Assembly: GCF_009831625.1 (NCBI RefSeq)
Contig: NZ_WUUS01000002.1
Location: forward strand, 62,001-126,000
Direction of reading: 5' to 3'
Source: Halobaculum saliterrae
Lineage (GTDB): Archaea > Halobacteriota > Halobacteria > Halobacteriales > Haloferacaceae
Length of the DNA stretch: 64,000 nt
The position numbers were made by a program, and so were the translations under genes. Every line of letters starts with the position of its first letter. Position 1 is the first letter of the stretch. Under the pieces are notes generated by a model, which saw only the letters and a list, made by a program, of their open reading frames with translations, was not told the DNA's origin and searched no databases. Of the stretch, positions 21,695-30,513 are shown piece after piece.

Positions 21695-22426
21695 TCAGTC
21701 GTCCGCTCGTGCGCGCTCGAATCGGTCGGCCGGAAGCCGGAGGTCGTCGAGCCCCGGTAGGTGTTTGACGTTGTAGATGACCCGGAGCGTCTCCGAGACC
21801 GGACGACCGATACACGAGAGGCGGAAGCCGCGTTCGACCAGGTCGTCGGTGAGCACGTTGTCGACGGTGCTGTCGAGCTCGCCCTCGACGACCGCGACGG
21901 CGCAGTTCGCGCAGGCCCCGCCGCGGCAGGCGAACGGCCACGCGAACCCGCGGTGTTCGGCGGCCTCGAGCAGCGTCTCCCCGGGTTCCGCGAGGAACAC
22001 CCCGTAGTCGGCGTGGTCGAGGTCGGCGCTCGACGCCGCCTCGAAGAGGTCCGGGTCGTCGATCTCCCAGCCGTGGTCGGCGACGGCGTCGTAGTTCAGA
22101 TACTCGACGCGGGTGTTCGTGGGCGTTCGCTCTCCCCCTGTGCCGTCGCGTTCGCCGTCGCTCCGGTCGGTCCGGTCGCCGTGACTCTCGTCGTCGGCCT
22201 CCGGTGGCGACTCCTCCCGTGACCCGGAGGCTCCGTTCTCCACGTCGCTCTGCGGGATGGCCGTCCCCGAGGTCGCCGCCTCGTACGCCGCCCTGACGCG
22301 TTGAAACTCCTCGGCGGACCCGCCGCGGTCCGGGTGGGCCTCCTTCACCCGCCGGCGGTAGGCCCGTTCGATCTCCGTGTCGTCGGCGTCGGCCTCAACT
22401 CCCAGTACGGCGTACGGAGAATCCAC
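21695..22426 (-). CDS. J-domain/2Fe-2S ferredoxin fusion
   Basis: 243 residues, GTG start. Residues 1-55 are a J domain with HPD at 31-33 (RVKEAHPDRGG). An acidic Asp/Glu/Arg linker (60-105) follows. Residues 106-243 are a plant-type 2Fe-2S ferredoxin with Cys167, Cys172, Cys175 and Cys205 (CRGGACANC, then SCIG), plus the acidic haloarchaeal insert. Electron carrier fused to a DnaK-recruiting domain; this fusion is known in haloarchaea. A strong BRE/TATA (CGAAAGGGCATATAAC) lies 27 nt upstream, so the transcript is leaderless. Confidence 0.93.
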   Translation of the reverse strand: MDSPYAVLGVEADADDTEIERAYRRRVKEAHPDRGGSAEEFQRVRAAYEAATSGTAIPQSDVENGASGSREESPPEADDESHGDRTDRSDGERDGTGGERTPTNTRVEYLNYDAVADHGWEIDDPDLFEAASSADLDHADYGVFLAEPGETLLEAAEHRGFAWPFACRGGACANCAVAVVEGELDSTVDNVLTDDLVERGFRLSCIGRPVSETLRVIYNVKHLPGLDDLRLPADRFERARADD

Positions 22427-22735: not shown

Positions 22736-23344
22736 TCACTCCCCATACAGCGATCGCACGCGCTCGACGCCGCCGATCTCGTCTATCACGGCGACGACCG
22801 GCGACGGAACCGATGTTCGCCACCCGTCGACTCCGCGGTCGCTCGCTCGTCCACACCCGATCCCGACGTCCGACGTCTCGCGGCGTGTCGACGCCGATTC
22901 CACGGCCATCGCCTCGCGGATAGCGGTCCCGCTCACCGTCCGCTCGGCCTCGATCGTGGTCACACGACGGCCGTGCTCGCGGAGCCGGTCGGCCTTCACC
23001 TCGTGCCACTCCTCCAGCACCCGAAGGAGGTGCAGCGCGTCCGCCGGCGCGTAGTGTTCCCACAGGTCGGGGCGGTTGATCGGGAAGGGGAGGACTCGGA
23101 CCGGAACGCCCAGTTCCGCGTCCGACAGCGCCGCCGTGATCATCCGGTGGCGCTCGTGGTAGCGGAAGGGGTTGTTTCGCGGGTCGTCGCGGTCGGGGTC
23201 GGCGACCTCGGGAGCGACGTGGGCGGGGTCGGCGTTCGTGATCCCCACGATCAGCTCGTCGCACTCGCCGGCGGCCCACTCACAGTACGCGAGGTGGCCC
23301 TCGTGGAACGGCTGAAACCGGCCGTGAACGTGGCCCACCGTCAT
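22736..23344 (-). CDS. Nicotinamide-nucleotide adenylyltransferase-like protein
   Basis: 202 residues from ATG 23344. GRFQPFHEGH carries the HxxH of the nucleotidylyltransferase superfamily (His14, His17), and TVSGTAIREAM is the ISxT-like phosphate loop. NNPFRYHERHRMI and NRPDLWEHYAP match archaeal NadM-type enzymes. It is about 30 residues longer than typical archaeal NadM, with an extra C-terminal segment. The start overlaps the SelD-like gene's stop (ATGA), so translation is coupled. Could be a genuine NAD enzyme or a paralogue acting on a different phosphorylated substrate; the operon suggests the latter. Confidence 0.78.
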   Translation of the reverse strand: MTVGHVHGRFQPFHEGHLAYCEWAAGECDELIVGITNADPAHVAPEVADPDRDDPRNNPFRYHERHRMITAALSDAELGVPVRVLPFPINRPDLWEHYAPADALHLLRVLEEWHEVKADRLREHGRRVTTIEAERTVSGTAIREAMAVESASTRRETSDVGIGCGRASDRGVDGWRTSVPSPVVAVIDEIGGVERVRSLYGE

Positions 23345-24783
23345 CGTTCGCCCTCCGCCGTCGGCCAGCGTGCGGCCGATTCGACGAGCCGAGACGGGTC
23401 GCCGTCGGCGGCGTCCCGGATCGGCGCGTCGCCGCCGTCTACCGCGCCGATCCGAACCGGGTCCGCGCGCTCGACGCTCCGGAGGCGGTCGGTCGCCCGC
23501 GCCAGCGCGCTCGGCGTTCCGACCGCGGCGAACGACCCGTTCGTCTCGACGGTCACGTCGGGGAGCCTCCAGTGGCCGACGGACGCCTCGGCGACCCCAG
23601 ACAGGATCGGAAGTCGTTCGAGCCGAAGCGATCGCCCGTCGCGTGCGACGAGTCGGCCGATGCCACCGATACCCTCGCCGGACACGTCCGTGACCCGAGC
23701 GAGGTGCCGTGCGGGGTCGAACGACTCGCCCGGGTCCGGCCGACACGTGGCCAGCGCCTCCGCCACGGGGCGGGCGTCACGTGTGAGCCGGTCGCGTCCC
23801 AACTCGCGGAGGCCACGATCGCCGTCGAGGGTACCGAGCGCGAACGCCGCCAGCCCGCCGAACGGCCGGGTCACGAGCACGCCGCAGTCGTCGGGGATCG
23901 GGGGTTCGGTCGAGCCGACGCCGCCGCGGGCGGTGACGCTCGCGCCGAGGAGCCACCCCTCCCCGCCGTGTGCAAGCACTGACCCCCGCCTCACGCTCAC
24001 GTCCGACGGAAGCCCCGCGCGATACCAGTCGGTCGCCCGCGACGGGGAGGGGTCGACACCGGCGGGTGCGGCGACGACGGGATGGACGACGCGGTCGGCG
24101 GTCGTTCCCGCGGCGTACACGTCGTTGCAGGCGTTTAGTGCGGCGATCCGTGCTTGTTCGGGGGGATCGAGGCCCGGAAACGCGTGGACGACGTCGACGT
24201 TCGCCGCGAGGTGGTCGGCGATCGACGAACGGCGGGCCGCTCCGGCGGAGTCGGGGTCTGCGGTCGATCGGAAGTGTTCCAGCCAGAGGAGTCCGCCCGA
24301 GAGTCCGGGGACCTGCACGGCGTGGCCCTTTCCGATCGTCACCTCCGGTCCGTCGAGCCCGGCGTACGCGGTCGCGAGCGCGTCGCCAAAGCGCTCGGCA
24401 TCCGCGAGGTCGTCGCCGACGAACGCGCACGCGAGCGTCACGATGGGGTTCCCGCCCGCGTCGCCGTCGAACGGGACCGTCGGCCGCTCCTCCCCGAGGG
24501 CGACAACGTCGACCGCTCGCTCGGTCCCACCGTCGTCGGCCGCGTCCGCGAGGATCGCCGCGTCGGCGTCGGAACCCAGTCGGACGCTCGTCCCGTCGAG
24601 CGCCTCGTGGACGCGGTCACGGGCGGGGAACACTACCCTGTCCAGCGGCGTCTTCCCCGAACAGCCGCACCGTCTCGGGTCGGCGCCGAAACCGGGCGTG
24701 GGGCCAGGTCTCCCCGCCGATCGCTCGCGATCGCTGCCGCCGTCGGCGACGGCGCGGCCGCGGATCACTCTTCGCCCGGCCAC
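23341..24783 (-). CDS. SelD/AIR-synthase-like ATP-dependent enzyme
   Basis: 480 residues, GTG start. RRCGCSGKTPLD (Cys39, Cys41, Lys44) matches the catalytic Cys/Lys loop of selenophosphate synthetase. ALNACNDVYAAGTTADRVVH resembles the SelD NDVYAMG helix and metal site, and VTIGKGHAVQVPGLSGG resembles the second half. Haloarchaea are not known to make selenocysteine, and homologues have been annotated as SelD-related sulfur-metabolism proteins. It probably uses ATP to phosphorylate a sulfur or other nucleophile. Overlaps the mutase gene by 19 bases and the adenylyltransferase-like gene by 4. Confidence 0.7.
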   Translation of the reverse strand: MAGRRVIRGRAVADGGSDRERSAGRPGPTPGFGADPRRCGCSGKTPLDRVVFPARDRVHEALDGTSVRLGSDADAAILADAADDGGTERAVDVVALGEERPTVPFDGDAGGNPIVTLACAFVGDDLADAERFGDALATAYAGLDGPEVTIGKGHAVQVPGLSGGLLWLEHFRSTADPDSAGAARRSSIADHLAANVDVVHAFPGLDPPEQARIAALNACNDVYAAGTTADRVVHPVVAAPAGVDPSPSRATDWYRAGLPSDVSVRRGSVLAHGGEGWLLGASVTARGGVGSTEPPIPDDCGVLVTRPFGGLAAFALGTLDGDRGLRELGRDRLTRDARPVAEALATCRPDPGESFDPARHLARVTDVSGEGIGGIGRLVARDGRSLRLERLPILSGVAEASVGHWRLPDVTVETNGSFAAVGTPSALARATDRLRSVERADPVRIGAVDGGDAPIRDAADGDPSRLVESAARWPTAEGER

Positions 24784-26060
24784 AACGGCTTCACCTCCCT
24801 CGTCGGGTAGTCGTGAACCGCGGGGGTCCGCCGGAGCCCGTCCAGCATCACCCGATCGGCCGCCGCCCGAGCGGTCTTCAGCAGCTCCCGACCGCGAACG
24901 TCCCTGAATCCGCCGCGTGCGGCCGGCCGCTCGCCGACGGCCTCCACGTCGTCGGTGCGGACGGGCTCGGCGACCATCGTGACCGGGACGGGCTCACCGG
25001 AGTGGACAACGTCCTCGGTGCTCGGGGTCGTGTGGTCTGCCGTGACCAGCGTGACGAGTTCGGGGTCCGTCAGCGCGCGCTCGACCACCGGCGCGAGCGA
25101 CGCGTCGATCGCCGCCAGTTCGTCGCGCTTCTCCGCCGGCCCGGCCGCGTGTGACACCTCGTCGGGCTCCGGGTAGTGGACGTGCACGAACTCGTGGTCC
25201 GCGACCGCATCGAGCGCGCGGCCCGCGCGGGCGTCGTAGCCGTCCGGCGGGTCGACGTGGGCCATCCCGAGCGTCCGTGCGAGCCCGGTCAACACCGGCT
25301 TGGGCGTCACGCTCGCCGCGTCCAGCCCGTGCCGCGCGCGGAACGACTCGACCCGAGTGGGCGTCGCGGCCCACTTCGAGAGCACCACGTCGGCCGGTCC
25401 CGGCTCGTCCGCCATCGTCGACCGGGTCGACCGGGTGTACGTCCGCAGCGCGTCCGCCGTCCGACGGGCGGCCCCCCTGTCGGTGGCGTCGCGGGTCGGC
25501 TCGCTCGCGACGACCGGCAGTCCGGACTCGAACGGGTCGACGTCCGTGACCGCCGGCGACACCACCGTGTCCGCAGTAACCGTCACCGTTCCCCGGTTCT
25601 TCCACGTGTACTCGAACTCGACCGAACAGCCGTCGACGACCGGCACGTCGACCGCGGCGACGCCGGGGCGCTCTGCGAGCGCGGGGAAGTCGTCGTCCTC
25701 GCTCCCGAGGTGTCGGTTCGCCACCCGCGTCCCGGTCTCGGCATCGAGCGACGCGAACGACGCCGAGCAGACGACGCTGCCCGGCGGCGGCTCGGTTCCG
25801 AAGCCTCGCGCCTCGAGCACGCCCCGCCCCGGGACCTCCTCGGGGTCGTAGCCGAACAGGCGAGTGTGCGCGAGGTCGCTCGACAGCGGGACGCCCGGGT
25901 CGGCGACGTGCATCGTGCCGTTGATCCCCGCCGCCGCGAGCCGGTCGAGGTTCGGAGTCTCTGCCGCCTCTAACGGCGTTCTGCCGTCCAGCTCCCGCGC
26001 CGGCCGGTCGGCCGCGCCGTCGAGCAGCAACAGGAGGATCGAGCGGTCCCTCCCGCGCAT
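24765..26060 (-). CDS. ApgM-like phosphoglycerate mutase family protein
   Basis: 431 residues, similar to archaeal ApgM. Metal/catalytic positions of the alkaline-phosphatase fold are visible: LLLLLDGAADRP (Asp14), PLSSDLAHTRLFGYDP (candidate catalytic Ser60/61), VHYPEPDEVSHAAGPAEKRD and TADHTTPSTEDV. GRTPLEAAETPNLDRLAAAG is the family signature. It may be the glycolytic phosphomutase, but tight coupling to a SelD-like and an adenylyltransferase-like gene suggests a separate phosphoryl-transfer role. The start overlaps the upstream acyl-CoA dehydrogenase stop by one base (TGATG). Confidence 0.82.
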   Translation of the reverse strand: MRGRDRSILLLLLDGAADRPARELDGRTPLEAAETPNLDRLAAAGINGTMHVADPGVPLSSDLAHTRLFGYDPEEVPGRGVLEARGFGTEPPPGSVVCSASFASLDAETGTRVANRHLGSEDDDFPALAERPGVAAVDVPVVDGCSVEFEYTWKNRGTVTVTADTVVSPAVTDVDPFESGLPVVASEPTRDATDRGAARRTADALRTYTRSTRSTMADEPGPADVVLSKWAATPTRVESFRARHGLDAASVTPKPVLTGLARTLGMAHVDPPDGYDARAGRALDAVADHEFVHVHYPEPDEVSHAAGPAEKRDELAAIDASLAPVVERALTDPELVTLVTADHTTPSTEDVVHSGEPVPVTMVAEPVRTDDVEAVGERPAARGGFRDVRGRELLKTARAAADRVMLDGLRRTPAVHDYPTREVKPLWPGEE

Positions 26061-27328
26061 CAGTCCAGCCCGAGCGTCTTCGCGATGGTCCGTTTCTGCA
26101 CCTCGGTCGTTCCCGCGGGGATGCGGAGGTTTCGAGCGACCCGGAACACGCGCTCGACGCCGCCGGCGCGCATCAGCCCGTAGCCGCCGAGCACCTGGAT
26201 CGCGCGGTCGGCCCAGTCGAACAGACGGTCCTCGGGGTAGTACTTCAGCATCGAGAGCTTCCGTCGAGCGGTCGCCGGCTGGTCGAGGTCGTGGAGGTTG
26301 GCCTCCGCGTCATAGGCGCCCAACAGGGACGTCCCGAACTCGCGGAGGGCGTGGATCTCCGTCGCCGTCTCGACGATGGGCCACTGTACGGCCTGGTTGC
26401 TGCCGATGGGCTCCCCGAACGACTCCCGATCCTTCGCGTACGTGAGCATTCTGTCGAGGAGGTATCGGCCCATCCCGGCGCACATCCCGGCGCGCCCGGC
26501 CCGTCGCCAGTTCACCCACGACAGCGCCAGCGGGAGCCCGTCGCCCACCTCGCCGACGAGTTGGTCGCCGTCGACGCGGCAGTCGCGGAGGTGCACGTCC
26601 GAGGTGATGCCGTCCATCATGATGTTCAGGTTCGGCTCGCCGACCTCGTAGCCCGGGTTGTCGGTGTCGACGAGGAACATCCCCATCGTCTCGTGGGCCG
26701 GCCCCTCGGCGCCCTCGACCTTCGCGAGGATCTGCGCGGTGTCCGCGAACGGGCCGTTCGTGATGTAGCGCTTGTCGCCGTTGAGAACCCAGCCGTCGCC
26801 GTCGCGCTCGGCGGTCGTCGAGATCGCCGTCACGTCCGACCCGGCGCCCGGCTCCGTGATGCCGATGCAGGCCGTCTCCCGTCCCTCGACGAGCGGCCGG
26901 AGCCACTCCTCGCGCTGGTCCTCGTCGAGGTGCAACAGCGCGGGCGATGGCCCCTCCGTCCACGCCATCATCGCGCGGGCGACGCTCGACCCGTGGCCCG
27001 TCCCGTAGCGGAACACCGCCTCCTGCACGTAGAAGTGCTCGCGGTTCGAGAGCCCGCCGCCGCCTACCTCCTCGGGCAGGTGGAGCGCGTACAGCCCCTC
27101 GTCGGCGCTTCGCTTCCGGATCTCCTCCTGCATCGCCCGCGTCTCGGGCTTCATGAGGCCGTCGTCGTCGAGATAGTCCAGCGGCCCGCCGACGTGCTCG
27201 GCGTGCGCCTCCTCGTAGGGCAACACCTCGTCTTCGATGAAGTCGATCACCCGATCGACGACCGGCCGCACGTCGTCGGGGACGGTGAACTCTCCCGCCA
27301 GCGCCTCGTCCTCGGGGAACATCGTCAT
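26060..27328 (-). CDS. Acyl-CoA dehydrogenase family protein
   Basis: 422 residues, usual length. ACIGITEPGAGSDVTAISTT is the N-terminal ACAD signature (FAD contact), and the C-terminal helix region runs LGGYGLMRAGGVERVFRVAR then NLRIPAGTTEVQKRTIAKTL. At the usual catalytic Glu site (YEGTS in MCAD-type enzymes) there is Ala (PAGTT); the alternative isovaleryl-CoA-type Glu position also appears substituted (SWVNWRRAG). It may therefore not be a standard dehydrogenase. First gene of a four-gene overlapping operon. A TACTTAAC box lies 28 nt upstream, so the transcript is probably leaderless. Confidence 0.88.
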   Translation of the reverse strand: MTMFPEDEALAGEFTVPDDVRPVVDRVIDFIEDEVLPYEEAHAEHVGGPLDYLDDDGLMKPETRAMQEEIRKRSADEGLYALHLPEEVGGGGLSNREHFYVQEAVFRYGTGHGSSVARAMMAWTEGPSPALLHLDEDQREEWLRPLVEGRETACIGITEPGAGSDVTAISTTAERDGDGWVLNGDKRYITNGPFADTAQILAKVEGAEGPAHETMGMFLVDTDNPGYEVGEPNLNIMMDGITSDVHLRDCRVDGDQLVGEVGDGLPLALSWVNWRRAGRAGMCAGMGRYLLDRMLTYAKDRESFGEPIGSNQAVQWPIVETATEIHALREFGTSLLGAYDAEANLHDLDQPATARRKLSMLKYYPEDRLFDWADRAIQVLGGYGLMRAGGVERVFRVARNLRIPAGTTEVQKRTIAKTLGLD

Positions 27329-27676: not shown

Positions 27677-27771
27677 TACCGATATGACCCAATTTTGATC
27701 CGGGGGTTTCCGTTCAAATCTGCGGTGATAGTGACCGTCGTCGCATCCGCTTCAAACCGAAGAGTCAGCCA
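27676..27771 (-). pseudogene. HalOD1 gene remnant (3' end only)
   Basis: On the minus strand this reads TLRFEADATTVTITADLNGN followed by PRIKIGSYR and a stop (TAG, 27676-27678). It is about 88% identical by eye over ~100 bp to the end of the HalOD1 gene at 61453-61911. The 5' two-thirds is missing: the match ends at the stop codon of the lipoprotein gene (27765-27767), so the junction lies there. A truncated relic. Confidence 0.75.
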
Positions 27772-30113
27772 TACCGCTCGAATGCGTCCTGCAGCACGTC
27801 GTACGACTCCTTCAGCCGTTCCTCGGTCTCCGGGTCGTTCCAGGTGTCGAGCGAGAAGCGCCCCGCGTCAGCGGGGATCGTCCCCGACACCGCTGCTGGG
27901 AGCGTGTCCGTTGCGTTCGGTCTCCCCGAGAGCGTTCGCGCGTCGCCGTCGGCGTCCGGAGCGTACGTGAGCGCCGCGATCCCCACGTCGTCAACGGGAC
28001 GGGTCGCGCCCAGTCCGTCCGTCCAGATGTCACCGGTCATGACGGCCGAGCTCGGGTCACGAAAGCCGAGGAGACACCACGGCAGCCGGAGCTCGATTGT
28101 GTTCGCCGCGGCGTCGACATGGACGTCCGTTAGGGAGTCGTACTTGGATGAGTCCGGGTCTCCGATGCCGTACCGCAGCTGCCCGGTCTCGACGGATCGG
28201 AACGAGACAGTCCGGCCCTGTGTCGGAAGATCAAGCGGGTAGGACACCGCGAGCCGTATCGGATGGTAGACGCCGTTGTCCGGGGTCGACGCGTACGGGC
28301 GCGTCGGAAGGTATCCCCCGGTCTCGCCGTACTCGTAGTAGAAGCGATCAGCGTGGCTCGCGACCCAGGCCCGCGAGGCGTCCGGACCCGCCAACTCGAC
28401 GACGACGTCCGCTCGGCCCGCGTGATCCAAAATCAGTCCCCGTGGGAGAGCGGTGTTCCCACGATCGGGGACGAGATCGAACCCGAGCACCGTCCGCATC
28501 CGATCCCAGTCGACGGTCTCGCCGAGCTCCTCGTACTCGATTCGGACCGACAGCGCTGCTGGGTCGGCCGTCGCGCGGACCTCGCGGAGGCTCCGGCCCG
28601 CATCGTAGCCGTCGTCGAGCGCGACTCGCGGCTCCCGGCCGCCCGTCGAGACGATGGTCGCGCCAGCCCACTCTTCGGCGTCGCCCGACAGCGTGACGCG
28701 TCCCGCGGGATCGAACGATAGCAATCCGAACCGCTCCTCGGGCGACTGGTCGTTGAGCCACTCCGGCCGACGGTTCGGGTCGGTGTACCGCATCGTGTTC
28801 CACGTCCGCTTGAACCACTCGTCCTGCCAGGCGAACACGATCCCGCCGGCGGCCCCGGATTCGACGATATCCGCGAACAGTGCGGCGTCGAGTTCACCCT
28901 GTCGCGTCTCCGTGTGGTGTCCTTGATCGAACCCGTCGACCTGCTCGTGGGCGGTGCCACGCGAGGCGGGGACACCGAACTCGCCGATCACCAGCGGGTG
29001 CCGGAGGTTCTCGCGGAGGTCCTCGAGGTACGCGCGGTAGCTGCGCGACCCGGCGGCGCCCTCGCCCTCGCGCAGGTACTCCTCGCTGAAGTTGAGGAAG
29101 TCTGGGTAGTACGGGTACGCGTGGTAGGTGGCGAACAGCCCGGGCGAGTGGGCCCGCGTGCTCGCCAGCGCGTTCGGGTTCACCGACGCGCGGTCCTCCC
29201 ACGCCAGCGGTTCGGCCGGGTGATCGAGGTGGTCAGTCGTGGGCCAGTTCGAGATGCTCGCAGGCCGGGTCGTCCCGTACGCCTCCGCCTCGTGTGTGAG
29301 CGCACGGTCGAGTCGGCGGGCGAGCCAACGCTCGAACGCCGCGGCGTCGGCCGTCGCCTCGACGTACCGGCCGTCGGTAGCGCCGCCGTCGTGGTGCTCG
29401 TTCGTCCGGAGGACGAACTGTGGCTCCCACTCGACCCCGGCTACGTAGCCCATCGTGTACGGCGAGACGTCCGCGGTGAACGCCCCGGCGGCGTGGCCCG
29501 GACGGTCGGGGAGTGTCGCGTTCCCGTGGACCACGTCGATCGCCTCGCGAAGCCCCCGGTCGAACACCGCGGTGAGTTCGTCGTCGAACGCGGTTGTTTC
29601 CCCCTCGGTGAGATGCGCGGGCAGCCAGTTGCCGTGAAACAGGTACAGCGGGTCCTCGACCCGCTCGTTGAGCGCCGAGAGCGCCTCGTAAAACGCCGGC
29701 GGGTGGACGGTGTACACCCGAACCGCGTTGGCGTTCATCTCGTGTATCCGGGCGAGCCAGCGGTCGTACTCCGAGCGCGTGATCGCCGCCTCCCCGGGGA
29801 ATGTCCCCGGCTTGCCCATCCCGAGATTCACCCCGCGGAGGAGTCTGTCGCTCCAGCCGTCGTCATTCCGGACCTGAAACGCCCCGTCCCGAAGGCGGAA
29901 CCGCGCTCCGGGCGGGGAACCGCCGTGGTCGCCGGGGTCGGTTGTGGGTGAGTCAATCGTTCCCGTCGCGGCGGAGGAGTCGTCGGGAGCGTCGTCGGAC
30001 CCGTTCGCCCCGCCGCAGCCGGCGAGCGTCGCCGCGGCGGCACCCGCGCCGACAGCGCGGAGAACCCGGCGTCGTTCTCGATCCACGCCTTCCCCCTGTG
30101 GACGCGGGTACAT
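27765..30113 (-). CDS. Tat-exported lipoprotein with TIM-barrel glycosidase-like domain
   Basis: 782 residues from ATG 30113. Tat motif RERRRVLRAVG and lipobox LAGC (Cys33) indicate an exported lipid-anchored protein; an acidic spacer follows. Residues ~75-430 look like a GH2/GH5-type barrel: LLRGVNLGMGKPGTFPGEAA, NANAVRVYTVHPPAFYEAL, LYLFHGNWLPAH, HPLVIGEFGVPASRG (candidate nucleophile/acid Glu), GGIVFAWQDEWFKRTWN. The C-terminal ~330 residues are beta-rich (sugar-binding-like). Likely acts on extracellular polysaccharide; substrate unknown. The frame is open further upstream, but Tat signal placement fixes the start. Its final codons sit at the junction with the HalOD1 remnant. Confidence 0.85.
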   Translation of the reverse strand: MYPRPQGEGVDRERRRVLRAVGAGAAAATLAGCGGANGSDDAPDDSSAATGTIDSPTTDPGDHGGSPPGARFRLRDGAFQVRNDDGWSDRLLRGVNLGMGKPGTFPGEAAITRSEYDRWLARIHEMNANAVRVYTVHPPAFYEALSALNERVEDPLYLFHGNWLPAHLTEGETTAFDDELTAVFDRGLREAIDVVHGNATLPDRPGHAAGAFTADVSPYTMGYVAGVEWEPQFVLRTNEHHDGGATDGRYVEATADAAAFERWLARRLDRALTHEAEAYGTTRPASISNWPTTDHLDHPAEPLAWEDRASVNPNALASTRAHSPGLFATYHAYPYYPDFLNFSEEYLREGEGAAGSRSYRAYLEDLRENLRHPLVIGEFGVPASRGTAHEQVDGFDQGHHTETRQGELDAALFADIVESGAAGGIVFAWQDEWFKRTWNTMRYTDPNRRPEWLNDQSPEERFGLLSFDPAGRVTLSGDAEEWAGATIVSTGGREPRVALDDGYDAGRSLREVRATADPAALSVRIEYEELGETVDWDRMRTVLGFDLVPDRGNTALPRGLILDHAGRADVVVELAGPDASRAWVASHADRFYYEYGETGGYLPTRPYASTPDNGVYHPIRLAVSYPLDLPTQGRTVSFRSVETGQLRYGIGDPDSSKYDSLTDVHVDAAANTIELRLPWCLLGFRDPSSAVMTGDIWTDGLGATRPVDDVGIAALTYAPDADGDARTLSGRPNATDTLPAAVSGTIPADAGRFSLDTWNDPETEERLKESYDVLQDAFERYG

Positions 30114-30513
30114 GGGTGTTCTGTCGGGGCCCTCTCGTTTGGATCCCTTCCGGCGAACGCGGACCCGAACTGTCCCGGAATTGTGCGGCGGCTGTGGGGT
30201 GTCCGCCGGCGTCGAAGTCGCGGCGACGGACTGATGTACCGTTCCACACGGTCGATCGTGCCTCCCTGGCGTGGTCCGCGATGTTGGTGGCGTCGACGCG
30301 GTGTGTTCCAACATTTAAAAACGACGATCCGCGTGAAAGTATACTAGCCGAACTCTCTGATGACCAGCACGATCAGTTCGTTTGCATTCGTGATAGAGCG
30401 TTCGTCTGTATCTACCAGCATATCCCTCTTCGATCCGTCGATGCACGGCTGAATTAGGCGATAAGAAGGTACTGCGAATGAATCAGTACCGCTGGCGGCA
30501 CACGGCAACCGTG
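30114..30513. other. 400-bp intergenic region with repeat copy A
   Basis: Composition shifts to lower G+C after ~30310. Contains copy A of the dispersed repeat, which ends in an inverted repeat GGTACTG/CAGTACC (30468-30490). Confidence 0.55.
30405..30480 (+). repeat. Dispersed ~75-bp repeat, copy A
   Basis: CTGTATCTACCAGCATATCC ... GATCCGTCGATGCACGGCTG ... GCGATAAGAAGGTACTGCG. Same orientation as copies B-F. Lies 33 bp past the stop of the HalOD1 gene. On the minus strand it encodes YRLIQPCIDGSKRDMLVDT in an open frame. Confidence 0.85.

Follow-up and report, generated by a model that had tools for sequence, protein, structure and literature searches.

Recurrence of a four-gene SelD-like operon in haloarchaea and on Rhodococcus plasmids points to a probable undescribed pathway for a sulfur- or selenium-phosphate compound

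Orphan selD genes, which occur without a known selenium trait, are described as an open puzzle in sections of two studies (PMC5322559, PMC2276186), and crenarchaeal relatives of SelD are proposed to make thiophosphate in a portion of Li et al. 2014 (PMC4210487). Hardly any natural products with phosphorus-sulfur bonds are known: apart from DNA phosphorothioation and S-phosphocysteine, a passage of a review from 2019 lists only two small molecules (PMC6429109). A passage of another paper places PhpF, the phosphonoformate cytidylyltransferase, in the nucleotidylyltransferase family PF01467 (PMC6697681). Here we describe a locus within a 64,000-nucleotide stretch of the Halobaculum saliterrae genome (contig NZ_WUUS01000002.1, positions 62,001 to 126,000, hereafter the window; host genome 3.78 Mb in 21 contigs) in which four overlapping genes encode an acyl-CoA dehydrogenase (ACAD)-like flavoprotein, a protein of the alkaline phosphatase superfamily resembling the archaeal phosphoglycerate mutase ApgM, a SelD-like protein and a NadM-like nucleotidylyltransferase that we call CTL (Table 1). 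The recurrence of this gene set in an archaeon and on Rhodococcus plasmids points to an undescribed pathway, probably for a sulfur- or selenium-phosphate compound activated with a nucleotide. Our reading, to which we assign a probability of roughly 0.4, is that the four genes are a single operon, one that moves horizontally and tends to sit on plasmids, and that they encode a small-molecule pathway not yet described, with a four-step route.

In a class sample of 391 Halobacteria genomes, the window's own included, the SelD-like protein and CTL were each found in 11 genomes, the two sets being identical, and the ApgM-like protein in nine, all of them within these 11. The order and strand of the four genes are kept in 9/11 loci (the window and eight of the ten other loci fetched), and a profile scan of genome contigs with the SelD-like alignment returned one locus only. 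All four genes are missing from three same-genus genomes (G184, G223 and G385, one of them 85% complete) and from G026, which shares its genus with G311, and this absence from close relatives indicates that the set was gained or lost jointly several times. The SelD-like gene is on plasmids in six Halobaculum and one Halorussus, and the operon is in many cases carried by secondary replicons. An ACAD-type match at E 1e-60 was obtained in six of 20 tested genomes, comprising all six of the four-gene genomes included there and 0/14 of the others. A wider draw gave 63/376 haloarchaeal genomes with some ACAD at this threshold, and as such paralogues are common the presence of an ACAD alone is not specific to the operon. 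The nine operon copies score at least 732 bits, with the next-best haloarchaeal ACAD at 287.5 bits.

The search in Bacteria covered plasmid records, and with the ApgM-like protein as query it found Rhodococcus. Four regions were viewed, those of R. aetherivorans pN1, Rhodococcus sp. PD04, R. pyridinivorans P23 and R. rhodochrous GD02, and 4/4 show the order TetR, ACAD, selD, CTL, ApgM-like, each of the three junctions within the operon being an overlap of 4 bases. In GD02 an IS3 element splits the last gene (ApgM-like). Record listings add NZ_CP027558, with selD, CTL and the ApgM-like gene by feature names, and NZ_CP032676, where only 12% of the last gene is kept. The Rhodococcus operon SelD is canonical (371.6 bits; TIGR00476 cut-off 125), its CTL is about 32-39% and its ApgM-like protein about 35-37% identical to the aligned haloarchaeal copies, and in our tree the archaeal and bacterial operon ACADs group together in a single clade, apart from four haloarchaeal paralogues (support 100/98). 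Genes of known SelD traits are not annotated in the Rhodococcus stretches viewed. The recurrence of the four genes is not chance: eight further haloarchaeal loci of the class sample have them in the same order, and Rhodococcus has all four in a different arrangement.

An earlier reading made from the window's letters alone (the sequence-only reading) had proposed a dedicated pathway unit, a view to be dropped if the genes did not co-occur in other genomes or if standard glycolytic and NAD activities explained them. The unit is borne out by the co-occurrence and the kept gene order, the set recurring in Halobacteria and in Rhodococcus, and the standard activities have genes of their own. The window genome has a separate NadM (254.2 bits; cut-off 181.2) and also encodes a GpmI-type mutase, which makes housekeeping roles for the operon proteins unlikely. 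We consider it very likely that the four genes are a real dedicated pathway unit.

Judged by its profile scores, each of the four proteins is a divergent paralogue of the family it is named after, because the scores against the curated families are real but lie under the equivalog cut-offs. The sequence-only reading was right as to the folds and families and as to the overlaps of 1, 19 and 4 bases, which the coordinates of the open reading frames (ORFs) confirm with all four on the minus strand. For the SelD-like protein of the window the scores are 95.8 bits against NF038049 (SelD_rel_HyperS; cut-off 250) and 20.1 bits against TIGR00476 (selD). Against NF038049 the copies of two loci from another family, L021 and L022, reach 172.9 and 204.6 bits, also under the cut-off. 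A profile of the SelD-like sequences matched four canonical SelD sequences with a probability of 97.3% (hhalign, E 1.8e-11). The Cys/Lys loop that had been picked out by eye, C39-G-C41-x-G-K44, is invariant in 11/11 haloarchaeal SelD-like sequences, and its Cys and Lys align with the catalytic Cys17 and Lys20 of canonical SelD in 16/16 rows. Of the metal-binding Asp residues, equivalents of Asp95 and Asp230 are kept in 16/16 rows and that of Asp55 is Asp in 15 rows and Glu in one, with Asp54 lacking a counterpart and Asp72 standing opposite a Glu in the 11 rows from haloarchaea. We think it fairly probable that the SelD or SelD-like protein makes a chalcogenophosphate.

A phylum scan with NF038049 matched 5/392 genomes, two of these matches (G572, G645) being short frames of canonical SelD size. 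A third match is a crenarchaeal-type SelD-like gene scoring above the cut-off (560.9 bits) on contig 138 (L052) of G585, a 73%-complete assembly assigned to this phylum, in which this is possibly a stray contig; the gene is flanked by rhodanese and acylphosphatase genes, with no CTL beside it. The sequence-only reading had guessed at a sulfur substrate and set selenium aside. The sulfur part agrees with the rhodanese neighbour of this crenarchaeal-type gene, with the finding of no SelD above cut-off in the 11 haloarchaeal genomes that carry the SelD-like protein and with the thiophosphate proposal made in the portion of Li et al. cited above. Selenium, on the other hand, has to stay under consideration for the pathway overall because the Rhodococcus operon uses a canonical SelD.

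CTL scores 63.4 bits against TIGR01527 (NMN adenylyltransferase; cut-off 181.2). It carries the GRFQPxHxxH motif, has an insert of about 14 residues relative to NadM and is set apart from seven NadM rows in the tree with a support of 100/100. A gene of the water-dikinase type adjoins CTL in 16/16 plasmid records (ten regions viewed, the other six taken from listings), this neighbour being SelD in five by feature names, SelD-like in seven by coordinates and PPDK-type in four, with a PPDK_N domain in 4/4 of the latter. The stoichiometry ATP + X + H2O -> X-P + AMP + Pi is common to SelD and enzymes of the PEP-synthase type, and CTL therefore probably takes X-P, the dikinase product. The pairing also suggests a general rule by which the NadM-like CTL family takes the product of whichever water dikinase it pairs with. 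A DHHA2 Mn-pyrophosphatase-type gene adjoins CTL in L021 and stands after CTL and a PPDK-like gene in the plasmid locus L065, and L021 and L022 each have an additional adenylate kinase gene close to the SelD-like and CTL genes. In these three loci such neighbours would fit with the release of pyrophosphate (PPi) and AMP.

Proteins distantly related to CTL (30-34% identical to the Rhodococcus copy) were seen in loci L064 to L067 on plasmids of Rhodococcus opacus, R. pyridinivorans, Treponema saccharophilum and Enterococcus gilvus, always directly before a PPDK_N protein of 617-647 aa. On the Treponema plasmid, genes for a cysteine desulfurase and a prokaryotic viperin (NF038283, 243 bits) come after the pair. 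Such plasmids hint at a second CTL-using nucleotide pathway. With regard to a defence role, PADLOC gave no match for the four window proteins, and only the viperin near the distant CTL matched. A CTL relative on a viral contig, at 5962-6579 of L091 (IMG/VR), is near an Eco57I-type methylase and an ORF that by eye looks like a histidine-kinase-like ATPase.

The ApgM-like protein scores 247.6 bits against TIGR00306 (apgM; cut-off 320) and, against the PhpG family NF038358 (cut-off 545), 163.7 bits for the window and 184.1 bits for Rhodococcus. Seven residues, D14, S61, D300, H304, D342, H343 and H353, are invariant in 9/9 haloarchaeal copies and are also present in Rhodococcus; these are presumably the metal ligands and the Ser61 nucleophile. 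The RAGR and RG(A/P)G motifs have been lost, and a KW motif is common to the haloarchaeal ApgM-like protein and the Rhodococcus operon protein only, within the set aligned. Three ApgM rows (L082, L083, L084) were left out of the ApgM tree.

Three Pfam domains of the acyl-CoA dehydrogenase fold are above cut-off in the ACAD-like flavoprotein. Ala405 stands where the displayed solved homologues have Glu (3/3 for the window, 2/2 for Rhodococcus), and the other catalytic-base position, which we take to be that of MCAD T255 and IVD E254, is occupied by Arg275 in the alignment to 6fah_C, as it is in Rhodococcus. A catalytic Glu is missing at either recognised position in the operon ACADs of the window and of Rhodococcus, and NWRR and PAG[TS] motifs with Ala at the Glu position are found in 5/5 operon rows and 0/4 haloarchaeal paralogues, the variation between PAGS and PAGT involving a row of L019 among others. 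With the usual catalytic glutamates lost this dehydrogenase is indeed atypical, as had been supposed; it had been left without a role and is in fact integral to the unit.

The route that we propose would begin with the SelD-like protein, or SelD in Rhodococcus, acting as a chalcogenide,water dikinase (ATP + HS-/HSe- + H2O -> thio/selenophosphate + AMP + Pi) and yielding thiophosphate in the case of the SelD-like protein and selenophosphate in Rhodococcus. CTL, as a NadM paralogue, would then couple the X-phosphate so formed with a nucleotide (NTP + X-P -> NMP-P-X + PPi, where NTP and NMP are nucleoside tri- and monophosphate). In the third step the ApgM-like protein, by way of its Ser nucleophile and two metals, would take the chalcogenophosphoryl group off NMP and hand it on to an organic acceptor, the template being PhpG, which is annotated to do likewise with phosphonoformate (NF038358). 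Lastly the ACAD-like flavoprotein, which lacks the usual base, might oxidise, reduce or eliminate on the acceptor or product. The sequence-only reading had the order phosphorylate, rearrange, activate; phosphorylation, nucleotide activation and then transfer, as in PhpF/PhpG, is the likelier one. We advance the full activate-and-transfer route tentatively, at somewhat less than even odds. We are a little more hesitant about the wider suggestion that Archaea and Bacteria may have in common an undescribed chalcogen-phosphorus pathway combining SelD-type thio/selenophosphate, NadM-derived nucleotide activation and ApgM-derived transfer to give a phosphorothioate or phosphoroselenoate metabolite.

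A number of points weigh against this route. The gene unit, the homologies, the retained catalytic residues and the conservation across two domains are established, and every reaction, the choice of sulfur or selenium, the NTP used, the acceptor and the order of the steps are things that we infer. Selenophosphate is already activated, which makes nucleotide activation chemically unexpected. Canonical SelD prefers selenide and the haloarchaeal form stands close to a family for which sulfide is the presumed substrate; the products of the Rhodococcus and haloarchaeal operons may therefore differ. An active-site Lys of the Rhodococcus ApgM-like protein is also missing in the haloarchaeal form (HYPEPDE vs HTKATDE). 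The SelD-like and CTL genes of L021 and L022 are together with neither the ApgM-like nor the ACAD gene nearby. CTL is encoded on two near-identical viral contigs, and in the one of these regions viewed there was no dikinase among the ORFs and the other operon genes were not found. The Rhodococcus plasmids are close relatives that probably count as about one transfer event, and predicted models built from two sequences (window and H. gomorrense L027) were unusable, with a mean predicted local distance difference test score (pLDDT) of 34.4 for the SelD-like and 29.6 for the ApgM-like protein.

The alternative that survives best, though we still think it unlikely, has the SelD product serving as a sulfur or selenium donor only. 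CTL and the ApgM-like protein would assemble an organic phosphate linked to a nucleotide and trim it, and sulfur or selenium would then be inserted into that molecule, with the ACAD finishing the compound. The same genes and the same co-occurrence would be seen, selenophosphate is a donor in its known uses (as for SenB or SelU), and there are enzymes of the ACAD fold that act on sugars linked to nucleotides. Such a scheme lacks a separate acceptor enzyme in the unit, of the kind of the SenB-type glycosyltransferase, and the unrelated dikinases beside CTL in 4/16 plasmid records suggest that CTL uses the dikinase product itself. Less probable again, and in our view quite unlikely, is that the SelD-like protein is a kinase for a non-chalcogen substrate, comparable to ThiL and HypE of the same fold, in a PhpF/PhpG-like route without sulfur or selenium. 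Many kinases have the PurM fold, PF01467 includes PhpF and the ApgM-like protein does match PhpG; but that match is well under the family cut-off, the Cys-x-x-Lys loop is kept throughout the haloarchaeal SelD-like sequences and the Rhodococcus unit uses a canonical SelD.

It is also improbable that the SelD-like protein and CTL are the true module and that the ACAD and ApgM-like protein are a separate, co-transferred function using acyl-CoA that comes, for example, from an adjoining 2-oxoacid dehydrogenase. L021 and L022 do hold the SelD-like and CTL genes only, and E1/E2 genes of a 2-oxoacid dehydrogenase adjoin CTL in five loci (L014, L015, L016, L017, L062). All four genes are nevertheless together in Rhodococcus with no E1/E2 genes alongside, and such genes do not adjoin the cluster in the window, L018, L019 or L020, with a lipoyl fragment only in L013. 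That the proteins are chance neighbours with standard activities (phosphoglycerate mutase, NMN adenylyltransferase, SelD, fatty-acid dehydrogenase), as their fold-level family matches would allow, is very improbable given the NadM and GpmI-type mutase encoded elsewhere in the genome, the near perfect co-occurrence, the recurrence of the set in Bacteria and the operon ACADs without a catalytic Glu.

With regard to the surroundings of the operon, a fusion of a DnaJ domain with a 2Fe-2S ferredoxin of the haloarchaeal kind is encoded just downstream (window 21695-22426, minus strand), and this fusion gene stays near the cluster in several Halobaculum loci. In the five loci with E1/E2 genes a four-gene 2-oxoacid dehydrogenase complex sits between CTL and the ferredoxin gene. 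The lipoyl-domain fragment of L013 and the absence of the complex from the window suggest deletion, and we do not count the complex as a partner of the operon. Upstream of the operon is an 849-aa ORF (27765-30314, minus strand) that matched no Pfam family at E 0.001 and in which a lipobox and glycoside-hydrolase-like stretches can be made out by eye. Beside the SelD-like and CTL genes of the Halorussus plasmid locus L021 (3915-8082) are genes for a glycosyltransferase resembling glucosyl-3-phosphoglycerate synthase, a methyltransferase, an adenylate kinase and an HprK-like protein that weakly matches FomB kinase. The ORF list has an alternative 336-aa GTG form of CTL that extends into the SelD-like gene.

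Table 1 Features of the four-gene operon in the window (positions are those of the window)
Feature	Position	Strand	Basis
ACAD-like flavoprotein, first gene, 422 aa	26060..27328	-	Pfam Acyl-CoA_dh N/M/1
ApgM-like alkaline-phosphatase-superfamily protein, 431 aa, proposed transferase	24765..26060	-	PF01676 + PF10143
SelD-like protein, 480 aa, GTG start, proposed thio/selenophosphate synthase	23341..24783	-	NF038049 2.1e-27
CTL, NadM-like nucleotidylyltransferase, 202 aa from internal ATG	22736..23344	-	PF01467
Overlap ACAD/ApgM-like, 1 base (TGATG)	26060..26060	-	sequence
Overlap ApgM-like/SelD-like, 19 bases	24765..24783	-	ORF coordinates
Overlap SelD-like/CTL, 4 bases (ATGA)	23341..23344	-	sequence
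Ala405 codon, MCAD-type catalytic Glu position, RIPAGT motif	26114..26116	-	alignments; MCAD numbering as we take it
Arg275 codon, NWRR motif, alternative helix-G catalytic position	26504..26506	-	alignment to 6fah_C
CGCSGK loop codons (Cys39 to Lys44)	24652..24669	-	Cys/Lys invariant

If the proposed route is correct it would constitute a new SelD-dependent trait and would explain some of the orphan SelD genes. The unit common to Halobaculum and Rhodococcus is in addition a compact and testable set, with four enzymes, two hosts and a read-out by 31P/77Se nuclear magnetic resonance. The sequence-only reading knew of no such pathway, and likewise we found no description of the four-gene module or of a pathway analogue in the open-licence PMC papers searched; the portions available to us of PMC4210487, PMC5322559, PMC9312934 and PMC2276186 make no mention of the unit.

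The individual proteins each have a described counterpart from which they depart. Archaeal NadM (e.g. MJ0541, 1f9a) has the fold and the GRFQPxHxxH motif in common with CTL, which differs in its insert, its substrate region and its separate clade and coexists with a real NadM. The archaeal phosphoglycerate mutase ApgM (2zkt) shares with the ApgM-like protein the fold and what are presumably the two-metal site and Ser nucleophile, whereas the RAGR and RG(A/P)G motifs are lost from the ApgM-like protein. The closest named family to the window SelD-like protein is NF038049 of the Sulfolobales and Thermoproteales, for which a portion of PMC4210487 proposes thiophosphate synthesis; the Cys/Lys loop is kept in both, and the window protein is under the family's 250-bit cut-off. 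The single crenarchaeal-type copy viewed (n=1) has rhodanese and acylphosphatase neighbours in contrast to the CTL of the haloarchaeal operon.

As a system, the operon resembles PhpF and PhpG of phosphinothricin biosynthesis in pairing a PF01467 nucleotidylyltransferase with an ApgM relative under an activate-then-transfer logic. It differs from them in that no C-P chemistry is seen, SelD replaces the phosphonate genes and the PhpG score is far under the cut-off; the likeness between PhpF and CTL is that of PF01467 membership only. The known SelD-dependent traits, namely selenocysteine, selenouridine, the selenium-dependent molybdenum hydroxylases and selenoneine (SenABC), use SelD as does the Rhodococcus operon, whereas the partners of SelD in the operon are the ACAD, CTL and the ApgM-like protein.

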